Shown here piece after piece: positions 23,407-59,350 of a stretch of 64,000 nt of DNA; within the stretch, counting starts at the first letter, position 1; the number at the start of each line of letters is the position of its first letter. Source of the DNA: Tunturiibacter gelidiferens (GTDB lineage: Bacteria; Acidobacteriota; Terriglobia; Terriglobales; Acidobacteriaceae); contig NZ_JACCCV010000002.1 in NCBI RefSeq assembly GCF_013410115.1, forward strand, positions 1,302,001-1,366,000, written 5' to 3'. Under the pieces are notes generated by a model, which was not told where the DNA came from, did no database searches, and saw only the letters and a list, made by a program, of their open reading frames with translations. Made by a program: the position numbers and the translations under genes.

Positions 23407-23487
23407 ACAAGACACTGATGCGATGGTTCCACTCTGGTTACAGGGAAGGTCTCGGACTCAATCCGGGACCTTTCTGTTGTAGAAGCT

Positions 23488-23666
23488 GTCCTGCCGGACG
23501 GGCCTCCTGCGCGGAGCGCGGGCGTTCGCACGCCTTTTTAGAGCTTCGCGTGGTCCTCCCGTTGGTCGGAATCAATCTTCCCTCGCGACCAACGGGAGCG
23601 CCAACCGAAGGGGTATACAAGTCACGAAGTGACCGCCCCACGCGTAGTGGGCCCGTCCGGCAGGAG
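23488..23666. repeat. Dispersed hairpin repeat, copy A (head-to-head double)
   Basis: This lies in the 455-base gap between convergent mreB and the CNNM gene. The left arm starts TCCTGCCGGACGGGCC and ends CTCCCGTTGGTCGG. The right arm is its near reverse complement, ending GGGCCCGTCCGGCAGGA. The right arm carries GTCACGAAGTGAC and the stem CCCAC-GCGTA-GTGGG. The left arm keeps only CTCC-TGCGC-GGAG. Together they form a large imperfect palindrome. Other copies are at 40826, 45682, 48713 and 57512. Confidence 0.85.
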
Positions 23667-23670
23667 AGCC

Positions 23671-40825: not shown

Positions 40826-40921
40826 GTCCTGCCGGACGGGCTCCCTGCGCGGGAGGCGGTCACTTCGTGACGTGTGTACCGGTCTTGGTGGGTGATGTGC
40901 GTGGGTCCTCCCTTTGGTCGG
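40826..40921 (+). repeat. Dispersed hairpin repeat, copy B
   Basis: Single arm between the YecD-like gene and convergent thrC, 32 bases after a stop codon. It contains CTCCCTGCGCGGGAG (perfect 5-bp stem), GTCACTTCGTGAC (perfect 5-bp stem) and the end block CCTCCCTTTGGTCGG. Confidence 0.85.
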
Positions 40922-40928
40922 AATGGGC

Positions 40929-42203
40929 TTACTGTGGGGTGATGATGCCTCCTACCGGCATACTGCTGGGGAGATGGGCTTTCTTTTCGCTGGGGCGCTT
41001 GAGGTGCATGGCTTCCGCGGTCATGTCGGTGTACTTGAGGCCGGCGCCGGTGTTGAAGAGGACGACCTTGTCGGTGGCCTTGAGGTCGCCGGTGGCGAGG
41101 AGGGCGTCGTAGGCCGCGGTGGCGGCGGCACCTTCGGGGGAGAGGAAGATGCCCTCGTGTTTGGCCCAGTCGAGGATGCTGGCAAGGATCTGCTCGTCGG
41201 AGAAGGCGAGGGATGCGCCGCCGGACTGGCGGACGATGTCGAGGATGATGGCATCGCCGTAGGGCTTGGGAACGCGAAGGCCGGCGGCGAAGGTGGCCGC
41301 GTTCTCGAAGAAGTCGCTGGCCGGTTTATTTTCTGCGAAGGCTTTGGCGACGGGGGCGCAGCCGGAGGCCTGGAGGGCGTACATCTTTGGGCGCTTGCTT
41401 CCCTTCTCGACCCAGCCTAACTGCTCCATTTCGTCGAAGGCCTTCCACATGCCGATGAGGCCGACGCCGCCGCCGGTGGGGTAGAAGACCGCGTCGGGGT
41501 AGGTCCAGCCCAGCTGCTCGACGAGTTCGTAGCCCATGGTTTTTTTGCCTTCTACGCGGAAGGGCTCCTTGAGGGTGGAGATGTCGAACCAGACCTGATT
41601 TGCGGGGGTGTTGGCGTCGCGCTGAGCCTTGATGTTTTCGGCGACCAGGCGGGCGCAGTCAGAGATGAGGCCGTCGACCATGGTGACGTCGGCTCCGTAG
41701 ACGATGCCTTCGAGGTAGTTGGCGAAGGGGACGTCCTGGGGCATGAAGATGTGGGCCTTGATGTCTGCTGCGGCGGCGTAGGCGGCGAGGGCTCCGGCGG
41801 CGTTGCCTGCGGAGGGGACGGCGAGATGCTGGAGGCCGTAGTGCTTCGCCATGGTGACGGCGAGCGAGAGGCCGCGGGCCTTGAAGGTGCCGGTGGGGTT
41901 TGCGCCTTCTTCCTTGATGTAGAGGCCGGGGTAGCGCTTGCTGTGGAGCATGGGGGTCCAGCCCTCCCCGAGGGTGACGGGGGTTACGTCTGGCAAGACG
42001 CTGGAGTAGCGCCACATGCCGAGGCTCGCTGGGGAGGCTGCGGCGCGGGCGGCGATGTCTTCGCGCTTTGCGGTTTGGCGAAGCTTGTCCATGTCGTAAC
42101 GGACGTAGAGGGAGCCGGCGCAGAGGGGGCAAAGAGTTTGAGGAGTTTCGGCAGAGAGGTGGTGGTGACAGCGAGAACATTCGAGCGAAACAATAACGGC
42201 CAT
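40929..42203 (-). CDS. thrC: Threonine synthase
   Basis: 424 residues. An N-terminal zinc ribbon (CSRC, then CPLC) is followed by the fold-type II PLP domain. The cofactor lysine lies in NPTGTFKARG, and the phosphate-binding loop in PTGGGVGL. It converts O-phosphohomoserine to threonine, the last step of the pathway that begins with LysC and Asd, encoded at 48.9-51.4 kb. The C-terminal end is slightly extended (KKAHLPSSMPVGG). Diaminopropionate lyases have a similar fold, but the zinc ribbon and the TFKARG context favour ThrC. Confidence 0.9.
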   Translation of the reverse strand: MAVIVSLECSRCHHHLSAETPQTLCPLCAGSLYVRYDMDKLRQTAKREDIAARAAASPASLGMWRYSSVLPDVTPVTLGEGWTPMLHSKRYPGLYIKEEGANPTGTFKARGLSLAVTMAKHYGLQHLAVPSAGNAAGALAAYAAAADIKAHIFMPQDVPFANYLEGIVYGADVTMVDGLISDCARLVAENIKAQRDANTPANQVWFDISTLKEPFRVEGKKTMGYELVEQLGWTYPDAVFYPTGGGVGLIGMWKAFDEMEQLGWVEKGSKRPKMYALQASGCAPVAKAFAENKPASDFFENAATFAAGLRVPKPYGDAIILDIVRQSGGASLAFSDEQILASILDWAKHEGIFLSPEGAAATAAYDALLATGDLKATDKVVLFNTGAGLKYTDMTAEAMHLKRPSEKKAHLPSSMPVGGIITPQ

Positions 42204-45673: not shown

Positions 45674-45681
45674 AAGGCGAT

Positions 45682-45884
45682 GTCCTGCCGGACGGGCGCC
45701 CTACGCGGGCGGCGGTCACTTCGTGACTTGTGTACCTTTTTGCGGTGAGTGAAGGGCGCTGGCCTCCCGTTGGTCGGCGATCGTGATTCCGACCAACGGG
45801 AGGATCTTTGCTGACGACTTGCCGAGACAGGTATACCCGTCACGAAGTGACCGCCGCCCGCGCAGGGCGCCCGTCTGGCAGGAC
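45682..45884. repeat. Dispersed hairpin repeat, copy C (head-to-head double)
   Basis: The left arm has GCCCTACGCGGGC and GTCACTTCGTGAC. The centre is a perfect inverted pair CCTCCCGTTGGTCGG / CCGACCAACGGGAGG. The right arm has GTCACGAAGTGAC and GCCCGCGCAGGGC and ends in GGCAGGAC. It fills most of the gap before nrdR, beginning 9 bases after the upstream stop codon. Confidence 0.88.
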
Positions 45885-45911
45885 ACGCGCTGCTAGAATC
45901 GATTTATTCCG

Positions 45912-48341: not shown

Positions 48342-48707
48342 ATGATTGCAGGATTGGCGGTGTTGGCGGCACAGCATTCGGCGCAGTTTACGGTTGATTT
48401 GGCCTTCGTGGTACATGCGCTGCCGCTTTGGTTTCTGGTGTTTGCTCTGTTTCTGCCACGGCTGGCGATGGTCGTGGCTTGGTTTCAGGGGTTGCTGGGG
48501 CCGTTTCACTTCGATCTGACACCACCACACTTCCAGGGCTTGGTTCCTCTGCTTTTCTGGCTACTGCTGCCAAGGGCGCTGGTGCTGTATCTGATCTATC
48601 AGGATCAGGGGATTCACTTCTGGTTTCTGCTCCATCTGCTGGTGGCCTTGTTGGTGTGGGCGGGCGGTGGGCACCGGATGACGCGCTCGCGGCGGCGGGA
48701 TAATTAG
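48342..48707 (+). CDS. Small hypothetical membrane protein
   Basis: 121 residues with three hydrophobic helices (LPLWFLVFALFLPRLAMVV, GLVPLLFWLLLPRALVLYL, FWFLLHLLVALLVWAGGG) and a basic tail. No family is recognised. It lies 43 bases after the copper-site lipoprotein gene and may belong to the same transcript. Repeat D begins 6 bases after its stop codon. Confidence 0.6.
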   Translation: MIAGLAVLAAQHSAQFTVDLAFVVHALPLWFLVFALFLPRLAMVVAWFQGLLGPFHFDLTPPHFQGLVPLLFWLLLPRALVLYLIYQDQGIHFWFLLHLLVALLVWAGGGHRMTRSRRRDN

Positions 48708-48712
48708 AGGCC

Positions 48713-48808
48713 CGTCCTGCCGGACGGGCCTCCTGCGCGGAGGGCGGTTACTTCGTGACTTGTATACCTTTTTTGTTGAGTTTTCCGCTTGGTCCTTCCG
48801 TTGGTCGG
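48713..48808 (+). repeat. Dispersed hairpin repeat, copy D
   Basis: Single arm directly after the stop codon of the small membrane gene. It contains CCTCCTGCGCGGAGG (perfect 5-bp stem), GTTACTTCGTGAC (one G-T wobble) followed by TATACCTTTTTT, and CTTCCGTTGGTCGG. The T-run suggests that this copy can act as a terminator. Confidence 0.88.
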
Positions 48809-48854: not shown

Positions 48855-49976
48855 ATGGAACGACGCAGGGTTGGCATTCTTGGCGCGACCGGAATGGTCG
48901 GGCAGCGATTCATTCAACTTTTGAGCAATCATCCGTGGTTCGAGATTGCGTGGCTGGCGGCGAGCGATCGCAGCTCTGGGAAGACGTACGCCGATGCTTG
49001 CAGGTGGAAGCTGGATACTCCACTGCCAAAGCGAATCGCGGCGATGACGTTGCAGCCAAATGTTCCTGAGGGCTCGGCGATTGAGCTGCCAAAGATTATC
49101 TTTGCCGCGCTGGATGCGGATATTGCGCGGGAGCTGGAGCCGCAGTTTGCGGCAGCGGGATGCGCGGTGATTTCGAACTCCAGCGCGTTTCGGATGACGG
49201 CGGATGTGCCGTTGGTGGTGCCTGAGGTGAATGCGGATCATCTTGCGCTGCTGGAGACGCAGAGTTGGCGGAAGGAGCATGGCGGGCGTGGTGGATATAT
49301 CGTCACAAATCCTAACTGCAGCGCGATTGGGCTGGTGCTGGCGCTGAAGCCGCTTGAAGAGAAGTTTGGCATTGAGAGCTTGTTCGTTTCGACGATGCAG
49401 GCGGTAAGCGGCGCGGGCTATCCGGGGGTGGCATCGCTCGACATTCTGGGGAACGTTGTGCCGTTCATCAAGAATGAAGAGGAGAAGCTGCAGGAAGAGG
49501 TCGGCAAGCTGCTGGGGGAGCGCAAGGGCTCGAAGATCGAGTTGCTGGATGCGAAGGTGAGCGCGCATTGCAACCGGGTGGCGGTGGAGGATGGACATAC
49601 GGAGTGCGTGAGCATCAAGCTGAAGAAGAAGGCTACGCGCGAGGAGATTCTGGCGGCGTGGAAAGAGTTTTTGCCGCTGGAGGGACAACATCTGCCGACC
49701 GCTCCTGATCAGCCGGTGGAGTATGCCGAGGGAGTGGACCGGCCGCAGCCTCGGCTGGACAGGATGCGCGGGCATGGGATGGCGGCGACGGTGGGACGTT
49801 TGCGCGAGTGCACTTTGTTGGATTGGAAGTTTGTGGTGTTGTCGCACAATACGATTCGCGGAGCCGCAGGCGCGGCGGTGTTGAACGCGGAGGTGCTGGC
49901 GTTGTTGGGCAAACTGGATAAGTTGGGCGTTCCATTGGAGAGGTTTTCGGCCAGGGCCGTGGCGGTGACGGCTTGA
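48855..49976 (+). CDS. asd: Aspartate-semialdehyde dehydrogenase (fungal/archaeal type)
   Basis: 373 residues. The NADP-binding start is VGILGATGMVGQRFIQLL. The catalytic Cys lies in NPNCSAIGL. The catalytic His and Arg segments are KVSAHCNRVAVEDGHT. Length and the NPNCSAIG form fit the yeast/archaeal subfamily rather than the E. coli one. The product feeds threonine and lysine synthesis. The lysC start overlaps its stop codon. Confidence 0.94.
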   Translation: MERRRVGILGATGMVGQRFIQLLSNHPWFEIAWLAASDRSSGKTYADACRWKLDTPLPKRIAAMTLQPNVPEGSAIELPKIIFAALDADIARELEPQFAAAGCAVISNSSAFRMTADVPLVVPEVNADHLALLETQSWRKEHGGRGGYIVTNPNCSAIGLVLALKPLEEKFGIESLFVSTMQAVSGAGYPGVASLDILGNVVPFIKNEEEKLQEEVGKLLGERKGSKIELLDAKVSAHCNRVAVEDGHTECVSIKLKKKATREEILAAWKEFLPLEGQHLPTAPDQPVEYAEGVDRPQPRLDRMRGHGMAATVGRLRECTLLDWKFVVLSHNTIRGAAGAAVLNAEVLALLGKLDKLGVPLERFSARAVAVTA

Positions 49977-57511: not shown

Positions 57512-57611
57512 CTGTCCTGCCGGACGGGCCCACTACGCGTGGGGCGGCCACTTCGTGGCGTGTATACCTTGCTGTGATAAAGGATCTGAGGTGGCCCTCC
57601 CGTTGGTCGGG
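57512..57611 (+). repeat. Dispersed hairpin repeat, copy E
   Basis: Single arm between dapD and the convergent reductase gene. It contains CCCACTACGCGTGGG and GCCACTTCGTGGC. In the latter the second stem pair is C-G where other copies have T-A. It ends with TCCCGTTGGTCGGGA, here a perfect 5-bp stem. Confidence 0.88.
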
Positions 57612-57638: not shown

Positions 57639-59024
57639 CTAAGCGGGTTTCTTTGGGACGGTGTTGAAAAGGTTGATGAAGCCTTCGGAGAGGGTGGGGT
57701 GGGTGAGGATGAGGTTGTGGACGGCGGTGTAGGGCAGGTCTGCGGACATGGCAAGTTGAATGACGGGCAGGAGTTCGCCGACGCCGGGGCCGAGGGCGGT
57801 GAAGCCGAGGATGCGATCGTCGGGGGCGATGAGGACCTTCATGAAGCCACGGGTTTCATCGAGGGTGCGAGTGCGGAGGGCGGCGGCCATGGGGATTTTG
57901 CCGAGGCGGTAGGCTGTTCCCTGCTTCTTTGCTTCGTTTTCGGTGAGGCCTACGTGGGATAGCTCAGGGTCGGTGAAGGTGACAGAGGGGACGTGCCGAT
58001 TCTTCGTTGTGCGGTTGGCTCCGGCCAGGTTGTCGCGGATGATGCGGAAGTCGTCGAAGGAGATGTGGGTGAAGTGGGGCGAGCCGGCAGAGTCGCCCAT
58101 GGCCCACACGCCGGGGGCGGTGGTCTCGAGGCGGTCGTTGACCTGGAAGTGGCCGGAGGGGGTGGTCTTGATGCCGACGAGGTCGAGGCCCATGTTTTGC
58201 GTGTTGGGGGTGCGACCGGTAGCGACTAAGAGGTGGGTGCCCTCTAGTCTGGCTCCGTCGCCGAGGTGGACGATGACGGATTTGCCGGAGGTGCCTTCGA
58301 CGCGGGTGACGCTGGCGTTGGTGACGATATCGATGCCTTCGTCCGCGAAGAGCTGGTGGAGGGCTTCGGTGACGTCGGGGTCTTCGCGATGGACGAGGGT
58401 TGGGTTGCGCTCGACGATGGTGACGTTGGAGCCGAAGCGGCGCATGGCCTGGGCGAGCTCGAGGCCGATGAAGCCTCCGCCGAGGACGAGGAGGTGTTCG
58501 GGGAGGATGGTGAGTTCGAGGGCTTCGATGTGGGTCATTGGGGCGGACTCGGCGAGGCCGGCGATGGGGTCGATGGTGGCGCGGGAGCCGGTGTCGAGGA
58601 AGATGTAATCGGAGCGGAGGGTGCGGGTGCCACCGGCGTTGAGGGCGACCTCGACGGTTTTTTCGGCGAGGAAGCGGCCGAAGCCCATGACGATCTCGGC
58701 TTTGGATTTGGCGTAGTTGTTGAGGTGCATGTCGCGGAGGCCATCGATCATTCGCTGGCGGCGGGCGCTGACGGCTTCCATGTCGACGTGCCATTTGCCG
58801 TGGACGATTCCGAACTCTGCGCCGCGCTGGAAGAAGGAGGCGACCTTGGCGGAGTGGATGACGTTCTTGCTGGGGAGGCAGGCGATGTTGGGGCAGGCTC
58901 CTCCGAGACGCTTGTCTTCGATGTTGGCGACCTTCTTGCCCTGGGAGGCAAGGTGCCAGGCTAGATATTTTCCGCCTTCTCCGCTGCCGATGATGATTGC
59001 GTCGTACTGTTCGGGCGTGGACAT
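57639..59024 (-). CDS. Pyridine nucleotide-disulfide oxidoreductase (Lpd / mercuric reductase-like)
   Basis: 461 residues from the ATG at 59024, with GGAGA upstream. The FAD site IIIGSGEGG, the redox-active disulfide in CPNIACLPSK, the NAD site LGGGFIGLE, and ATGRTPN are present. The C-terminal dimer domain has HPTLSEG. The ACPNIACLP form is closer to the mercuric-reductase-like branch than to true lipoamide dehydrogenases (which read GTCLNVGC). No heavy-metal genes are adjacent, so the substrate is open. The frame is open 13 codons upstream of the chosen start. Confidence 0.88.
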   Translation of the reverse strand: MSTPEQYDAIIIGSGEGGKYLAWHLASQGKKVANIEDKRLGGACPNIACLPSKNVIHSAKVASFFQRGAEFGIVHGKWHVDMEAVSARRQRMIDGLRDMHLNNYAKSKAEIVMGFGRFLAEKTVEVALNAGGTRTLRSDYIFLDTGSRATIDPIAGLAESAPMTHIEALELTILPEHLLVLGGGFIGLELAQAMRRFGSNVTIVERNPTLVHREDPDVTEALHQLFADEGIDIVTNASVTRVEGTSGKSVIVHLGDGARLEGTHLLVATGRTPNTQNMGLDLVGIKTTPSGHFQVNDRLETTAPGVWAMGDSAGSPHFTHISFDDFRIIRDNLAGANRTTKNRHVPSVTFTDPELSHVGLTENEAKKQGTAYRLGKIPMAAALRTRTLDETRGFMKVLIAPDDRILGFTALGPGVGELLPVIQLAMSADLPYTAVHNLILTHPTLSEGFINLFNTVPKKPA

Positions 59025-59350
59025 GAGAGATCTCCGTTGCGATTGAACTAATAATCGGGGCATTTCTCAGATGCACCCGAGGTCGCAGATGGCTTACATT
59101 ATCGCGTCCCGTCAGTTGATTTGTAGGTACCCAGCTGTCAATCGATGAGTGCTTTGGGGATTTTGCATAAACTGAAACGGGAAATCGGCCAACTTCCAAG
59201 TGGCCGACCATCGCCAGGAAATACTATTTGACTGGCAAGAAGCGAGTTTCGAGTTCCCAATTGCCGCTGATTCGAGCCTTTTCGTAATTCCGGCCCCATG
59301 GTTCGTATACACCACGTATGTTCGATTATGGGCTGACTTCGAGGGCGTCA
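59025..59350. other. Divergent intergenic region reductase / sigma-factor operon
   Basis: 326 bases between divergent genes. An inverted repeat TCGGCCA / TGGCCGA at 59185-59207 with a 9-base centre could be an operator or hairpin. No ORF is supported. Promoters of both genes must lie here, but none can be assigned with confidence. Confidence 0.45.

Follow-up and report, generated by a model that had tools for sequence, protein, structure and literature searches.

A family of extragenic hairpin arms in Tunturiibacter that keeps pairing and loops while its stem sequences vary

What keeps a repeated intergenic module paired while the letters of its stems change from copy to copy, and is the structure one of RNA or of DNA? 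The question is raised by a 64,000-nucleotide stretch of the Tunturiibacter gelidiferens genome (assembly GCF_013410115.1, contig NZ_JACCCV010000002.1, positions 1,302,001 to 1,366,000), hereafter the window, in which an earlier note had described one module at five sites, with compensating stem changes around fixed loops that it took to indicate selection on RNA or DNA structure, and had named no described family to match. Below, the window's genome (5.29 Mb) is labelled G000, a conspecific genome G120, and further genomes of the genus G002, G027, G028, G031, G041, G054 and G060; L numbers denote fetched loci. The closest named relatives found were Edaphobacter lichenicola strains and Granulicella sp. 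S190 and L60.

The module was found at all five sites, which together carry seven arms, those of sites A and C forming head-to-head pairs (Table 1). The first stems and loops quoted in the earlier note are as written at sites B (CTCCC-TGCGC-GGGAG), C (GCCC-TACGC-GGGC), D (CCTCC-TGCGC-GGAGG) and E (CCCAC-TACGC-GTGGG), as is the change of stem 2 from GTCAC-TTC-GTGAC to GCCAC-TTC-GTGGC at site E; stem 2 of site D, however, reads GTTAC-TTC-GTGAC. Overlooked were the arm pairs of sites A and C, an outer GTCC-TGCC-GGAC hairpin, the second stem of the left arm at site A and a central hairpin. From its outer end, an arm, whose consensus starts TGTCCTGCCGGAC, consists of GTCC-TGCC-GGAC, GGGC, stem 1 (4 bp, loop TGCGC or TACGC), GCG, stem 2 (5 bp, loop TTC), NNGTATACC, a variable stretch and CTCCCGTTGGTCGG, and this inner end pairs with its copy in the opposite arm of a full element to make the central hairpin. 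Each arm, found singly or in a head-to-head pair, therefore has three local hairpins (outer, stem 1 and stem 2) and half of the central one. The second stem of the left arm at site A, GGCGT-TCGC-ACGCC, is unrelated to the GTCAC-TTC-GTGAC type.

Table 1. Arms, hairpins and neighbouring genes at the five sites of the window (positions are those of the 64,000-nucleotide stretch).
Site	Feature	Coordinates	Strand	Details
A	full element	23487..23667		left arm 23487-23569 (+), right arm 23586-23667 (-)
A	stems			left stem 1 CTCC/GGAG, left stem 2 of type GGCGT-TCGC-ACGCC; right stem 1 CCAC/GTGG
B	single arm	40826..40921	+	stem 1 TCCC/GGGA
B	neighbouring genes			isochorismatase-family gene (+, ends 40794); PALP enzyme gene (-, 40929-42203)
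C	full element	45681..45885		arms 45681-45777 (+) and 45789-45885 (-)
C	stems			stem 1 GCCC/GGGC in both arms; central hairpin 45763-45803
D	single arm	48714..48808	+	
D	neighbouring genes			small ORF 48342-48707 (no Pfam match); aspartate-semialdehyde dehydrogenase gene 48855-49976
D	outer hairpin GTCC-TGCC-GGAC	48714..48725	+	
D	stem 1 CTCC-TGCGC-GGAG	48730..48742	+	covariation in 132-arm alignment
D	stem 2 GTTAC-TTC-GTGAC	48747..48759	+	one G.T pair; covariation in 132-arm alignment
D	inner end CTTCCGTTGGTCGG	48795..48808	+	half of the central hairpin of full elements
E	single arm	57513..57610	+	stem 1 CCAC/GTGG, stem 2 GCCAC-TTC-GTGGC
E	neighbouring genes			after tetrahydrodipicolinate succinyltransferase gene (+, ends 57391); before pyridine-nucleotide oxidoreductase gene (-, 57639-59063)

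The 15-base core TCCTGCCGGACGGGC has 157 exact copies in G000, where the same letters reversed have none. DNA was fetched around nearly all of 100 listed core places, and 103 arms from these stretches and the window served to build an arm HMM, which gave 125 matches in 275 kb of G000; these make up 36 full elements, 154-215 bp long, together with 53 single arms or fragments. The 103 arms fall into two length classes, 82-88 and 96-101 nt. Beyond the outer end, by 4-8 nt, lies a purine-rich stretch in arms of G000 and G027, and a T precedes the GGCC end that is found in G027 in 14 of 14 cases, mostly as (C/G)GAT; the stretch or the T could reflect a preferred target or serve as an outer tag. In several species the stem-1 loop region contains another, unrelated hairpin insert resembling CCCCACAAACGAAGACCTGTTTGTGGGG (L006, L042, L090 near 11080, L386 and L392, and in G120 at the sites matching G000 C1:800903 and C1:810593), as if this region were its target.

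Pairing was examined in 132 arms trimmed to their first 57 nt: the seven window arms and 125 near-full-length matches at other loci, no genome contributing more than 22. The 132 arms represent 20 genome or strain labels and 124 distinct rows; the other arms of G000 and one bearing a nested insert (L042) were left out. The RNAalifold consensus fold omitted stem 2, and pairs were counted instead on the structure read in the arms. The compensating changes around fixed loops held up in this larger alignment, stems 1 and 2 covarying strongly (score 0.239, against 0.090 when shuffled and 0.035-0.073 with partners slid), with 95.0% of cells paired against 86.4% after shuffling. Changes on both sides were seen in 9 of 14 pairs, comprising all five of stem 1, four of five in stem 2 and none of the four in the outer stem. 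The outermost pair of stem 1 (columns 17-32) changed on both sides in one row only and was unpaired in 41 of 124, and the weakest measure of covariation, that of further pair types, was matched by 13 of 500 shuffles. Among 396 unique arms, which span 25 genome or strain labels, stem 1 was parsed in 335 and fully paired in 296 of these (1000 shuffles: mean 94, maximum 123), while stem 2 was parsed in 361, with its three outer pairs standard in 345. The outer hairpin was recognisable in 362 arms of this wider set, most of which had been found through the outer motif, so that its constancy there is partly a matter of row selection.

The variation in stem 1 is of a restricted kind. Seven variants (CCAC, CTCC, CCGC, GCCC, TCCC, CGCC and TCGC) account for 283 of the 335 parsed stems and recur across species, and a CCCC/GGGG stem occurs once (L345). 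The two arms of full elements share a variant in just 23 of 60 cases (16.4 expected, P 0.03), which indicates that the small hairpin, and not the long palindrome, is the unit. Where stem 1 was parsed in both G000 and G120, 33 arms had the same stem, four differed with both versions paired and seven differed with one or both unpaired, these seven including nested inserts, degenerate copies and parser misses; four further arms were parsed in one genome only. The conspecific switches occur as blocks with similar flanks: beyond the four counted, CCGC/GCGG became CCAC/GTGG at C1:768615, stem 2 passed from GTCAC/GTGAC to GCCAC/GTGGC at C1:74613, and at C1:800903 the entire left stem 1 was switched with the remainder of the arm little changed. 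Thirteen of 52 off-type stems join halves of two known variants; seven of these hybrids differ from a matched stem by one base, as a single-base mutation might produce, and the other six are two or more bases away. The simplest account of the stem variation is that short tracts are exchanged between copies of the family.

Since much of the variation resembles such block exchange rather than stepwise compensation, covariation alone is no proof of selection and could in part be a by-product of exchange or of quasipalindrome correction. In its full form, this argument would hold that the covariation was unselected, produced by template switching within hairpins (quasipalindrome correction) together with ectopic gene conversion between copies. 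Such processes would fit variants that are few and common to several species, switches of whole blocks, stems that combine two variants, and the rarity of one-sided intermediates, as in columns 21-29, where 59 rows were the same, none had changed on one side, 58 had changed on both and six were unpaired. We nevertheless regard it as unlikely, as the loops are fixed while the stems change and the outer hairpin of G027 has been replaced by two different paired stems, which asks for the spread of a paired form.

In G027, which belongs to another species, the exact core of the window's genome is absent. In its stead, a core with the outer hairpin GGCC-TGCC-GGCC has 183 exact copies and one with GCGC-TGCC-GCGC has 219, a total of 402. 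The former occurs elsewhere one to six times in 13 other genomes of the genus (three in G000) and once in each of two outside it, and the latter one to four times in four other genomes of the genus, with a single copy in each of two genomes outside it. In 20 stretches of G027, 11 full elements were recognised, and every one of them has unlike ends, one GGCC-TGCC and one GCGC-TGCC-GCGC; their orientation relative to skew is uninformative, the stretches having been picked by motif strand. Together with the variation of stems 1 and 2, this outer-stem replacement shows all three hairpins keeping their form and loop while their stem letters change. The covariation, the unlike arms that each keep their own pairing and the paired replacement of the outer stem thus support the action of selection, or of some mechanism, on local hairpin structure, and paired outcomes would be favoured.

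The family is patchily distributed in the genus. The exact core is present in 27 of 61 genomes, with 52 copies in G002 and 55 in G028, and at least two of the 27 (G011 and G049) resemble chance hits in coding sequence. A covariance-model search, which scored at most 46 candidates per genome under stricter filters, found the family in 37 of the 61, nine by a single match. Among 59 genomes outside the genus, the exact core occurs once in each of four, with no arm in the surrounding sequence, and the model gave weak matches in three (E 3e-4 to 8e-4). Copy number within the genus extends from one or two elements to several hundred arms, and the family must therefore multiply; its mobility is suggested by copy number and patchy distribution.

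Comparison of sites gave no sign of recent transposition of a single sequence. Of 37 elements examined against G120, 33 could be placed, and 31 of these keep arms at the same place and in the same number by the HMM, with no fresh insertion and no clean empty site among the 33. Two candidate empty sites were discarded: at G000 C1:245562-245771, G120 has a deletion between the GTCC repeats of both ends, and at C1:91106-91285 it has about 560 bp of other DNA instead (L196). Conversely, all 45 arms in 20 conspecific stretches, chosen around expected sites, match a G000 element. In five named relatives, site C is occupied in all (three full, two single), site D in four and site B in three, and nine more distant relatives are empty at site C. 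Sites common to different species argue against a recent burst.

One such site lies beside a terminase-like gene (Terminase_6C) that is widespread in the genus and is followed by genes for a HipA-like kinase (HipA_2) and DUF3037 in L037, L044, L048 and L024. In the low-copy genomes G001, G022 and G044 (three, two and two model matches) the element lies between the terminase-like and kinase genes, where G000 also has one (G000:C1:382371-384071). The terminase-like gene was considered as founder machinery and set aside: it was found in 28 of 37 genus genomes searched, adjoins the element in eight of the 28 (loci including L212-L239), and is also present in genomes with no model match (e.g., G012, G013 and G029). 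The locus is thus best taken as an old shared site.

With respect to genes, the elements sit just behind stop codons. Genes were called de novo with a phase model that used no annotation (85% coding), and ten window ORFs, nine of them with a Pfam match, were all placed on the right strand; a codon model gave wrong strands, because local strand composition swamps codon usage. After deletion of small ORFs traversing elements, 41 of the 89 G000 elements lay in convergent gaps, 32 in tandem and ten in divergent ones, with one inside a called gene and five at stretch edges, as compared with 17 convergent, 84 tandem and 24 divergent gene pairs lacking an element in the same stretches. The median distance was 12 nt to neighbouring gene 3' ends (n=117; 74 within 20 nt) and 45.5 nt to 5' ends (n=54; 12 within 20 nt). 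At site D, the flank lengthens the outer hairpin to a perfect 11-bp stem (48707-48717 with 48722-48732), a possible terminator-like hairpin that could serve the small ORF upstream.

This placement would suit a 3' UTR element, that is, a terminator or an array of hairpins stabilising mRNA, with stems kept by selection on RNA; full elements also fold strongly as RNA, and Di Nocera et al. (PMC3733652) make the case for many REPs being transcribed and working as RNA. Position is also explained by selection against promoter damage, REPs in general sitting behind genes. On the arm strand, only G.T among the single-base departures from pairing would still pair in RNA, yet G.T barely exceeds A.C (17 versus 14), so that no preference for an RNA strand is apparent. 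A cis-acting 3' UTR element would further be expected to keep a fixed orientation to the upstream gene, whereas single arms in tandem gaps run with the genes in 9 of 16 cases and with the G-rich strand in 15 of 16. We therefore judge the transcript reading improbable.

The orientation of single arms is instead tied to strand composition. Local GC skew is very strong in G000, 0.3-0.4 at most in the window and with no clear tie to gene direction; about 2.5% is given as typical in the SkewDB abstract (PMC8941118). Within the window, skew is mostly about +0.2 to +0.4 from 24000 to 59000 whatever the gene direction, and low or slightly negative from 1 to 24000, with a sharp change near 24.0 kb; the low-skew stretches may be later arrivals. 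In the G000 stretches, 51 of 53 single arms run from outer to inner end on the local G-rich strand, as do all 49 at |skew|>0.1, and 27 of 28 in convergent gaps; the coding strand is G-rich in 109 of 198 long genes. The same was seen in G060 (8/9), G054 (22/22), G031 (14/14) and G120 (20/22), making five of the six genomes tested. The exception is G041, where the bias is absent (3/8, or 2/5 at |skew|>0.1); G041 and G060 may be close relatives, L342 and L343, from the one and the other, being identical across 250 nt.

This skew is probably replicational, with the G-rich strand as the leading strand and the arms pointing with the fork. In G054 the exact core shifts from the minus to the plus strand between 4.34 and 4.62 Mb, with dnaA at 4.42 Mb, and in G120 the skew switches near 1.10 Mb, with dnaA at 1.07 Mb. 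Patches of opposite sign lie on both sides of dnaA in the two genomes (e.g., minus arms at 5.0-5.6 Mb in G054), and there the arms follow the local skew, as inversions carrying both would give. Compositional erosion of the other arm does not account for the bias, since both arms score alike in 33 full elements in skewed DNA (63.9 versus 61.6 bits, p 0.475). The idea that full elements mark the borders of skew domains was dropped, the sign being the same on both sides in 31 of 36. Several single arms retain part of the second half, and site C is single in two relatives where four genomes, G000 included, are full; these observations favour an origin of single arms by loss of one arm.

The attachment of single arms to the G-rich strand rather than to gene direction, and the near equality of G.T and A.C departures, favour a replication-coupled role in DNA over one in RNA. 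Of the alternatives left side by side in the earlier note, RNA or DNA structure under selection, maintained pairing is thus retained and the choice leans to DNA, with the covariation itself being no proof of selection; some RNA effect of single elements would be compatible with these results.

As to kinship, Rfam gave no match for the window at gathering score, in keeping with the claim that no described family fits, but that claim needs qualification, as REP/REPIN-like repeats are a close functional neighbour. According to Di Nocera et al. (PMC3733652), REPs are short extragenic palindromes of high copy number with heterogeneous stems, single or in inverted pairs, lying close behind stop codons and between convergent genes; the unit is a palindrome of 20-40 bp, one end of which carries GTAG or CGTC as an unpaired motif, the CGTC-class foot often being TGTC or CCTC and going with a stem of 8-9 bp whose first two pairs are AT and, in most cases, with a CCA tail. 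The present family likewise has high copy number, extragenic positions behind genes, mostly in convergent or tandem gaps, heterogeneous stems, and single units or inverted pairs. It differs in that the arm lacks GTAG, an 8-9 bp stem, an AT start and a CCA tail, and has three hairpins and half a fourth in 82-88 or 96-101 nt; although the letters TGTC are present, GTCC there forms the 5' half of a stem of 4 bp, pairing with GGAC (GGCC or GCGC in G027). Its arms also swap stems as blocks.

The movement of GTAG REPs is ascribed to Y1 transposases, and the ends of IS200/IS605 elements (IS608) are secondary structures read as single-stranded DNA. The family might be a true REPIN that a REP-associated tyrosine (Y1/HUH) transposase once moved, the transposase having since been lost from G000. 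A single-strand Y1 transposase would give inverted pairs (36 full elements beside 53 single arms in the G000 stretches), hairpins, extragenic sites and replication-strand bias, 50 of the 61 genomes of the genus contain Y1_Tnp genes, and IS608 and ISDra2 target the lagging-strand template (PMC6006769), a further likeness to IS200/IS605 besides the end structures. Against this, PF01797 finds no Y1 gene in G000, G002, G028 or G027, with their 157, 52, 55 and 402 exact cores, and the core motif is absent at up to two mismatches from all 30 Y1_Tnp loci searched, the best match of each of 30 genomes; one of them, L156, has a lone one-mismatch match to the inner motif. There is no GTAG foot, and, unlike IS200/IS605 elements, the family has no linked TnpA gene, several hairpins per arm and inverted arms. 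We find this origin very improbable. Di Nocera et al. (2013) also describe terminal inverted repeat families of TIRYT transposases in the Acidobacteria K. versatilis, T. saanensis, A. capsulatum and G. mallensis (PMC3733652), which share with ours the phylum and the character of repeated inverted repeats outside the REP classes; compared by description rather than letter by letter, they flank Y1 transposase genes, while here none of the 30 Y1_Tnp loci has the core.

MITEs (e.g., Correia, Nezha and ERIC) are non-coding, intergenic sequences of 100-250 bp with terminal inverted repeats. The elements resemble this description in being non-coding and intergenic, with terminal inverted repeats in those of the G000 type, and their high copy number, their 154-215 bp (36 elements) and their TG...CA ends could mark them as deletion derivatives of an insertion sequence; a DDE transposase recognising TGTCC...GGACA ends would then move them in trans. 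We hold this to be quite improbable: the ends need not be inverted copies of one another, as in G027; the frequent single arms, lying along the G-rich strand, are not what a cut-and-paste DDE element would lead one to expect; an unsystematic look among about 100 listed core places revealed no longer element with such ends; and the 33 placed conspecific sites, having no clean empty counterpart, established no target-site duplication.

Among the papers listed by a search of titles and abstracts, none described the element, and in the literature covered neither an exchange of stem variants nor a replication polarity was described for REP-like repeats. RepRanger (PMC12306157) lists Granulicella aggregans among the genomes scanned for REPs, and that scan may include such sequences unnamed. 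The family is real, structured and old, REP/REPIN-like in habit, and outside both tagged REP classes.

Our preferred reading, which we consider reasonably probable, is a genus-wide family of extragenic palindromic DNA, copied around the chromosome, tolerated just behind genes and having a replication-coupled role. At the replication fork, single-stranded DNA would fold into a small hairpin as the working form, recognised by a putative protein that requires pairing and constant loops but no particular stem sequence. Ectopic recombination or template switching would swap stems between copies, with correction or loss of any tract whose product is a hybrid, unpaired stem, and single arms would arise strand-specifically, by loss of one arm or by single-strand insertion. 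More tentatively, and less probably than not, the family may represent a repeat class defined by hairpin form and loops, with stems as exchangeable cassettes, which is laid down with the fork, requires no Y1 transposase and can evolve unlike end hairpins; if so, it would be a single-strand element coupled to replication, and it would have a mover of a new kind or else no dedicated one, spreading in the latter case by template switching at the fork.

The role of REP-like repeats, as RNA or as DNA, is unsettled, and this family offers a clean test of both mover and role. Two of its genomes, with 157 exact cores in one and 402 in the other, have no detectable Y1 gene, its structure is kept while sequence is free, and its single arms are tied to the G-rich strand and not to genes. 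With strand composition as strong as it is in these genomes, the strand test gains unusual sharpness, and the exchange of stems can be observed directly in the natural variants that sister strains carry at one and the same site.
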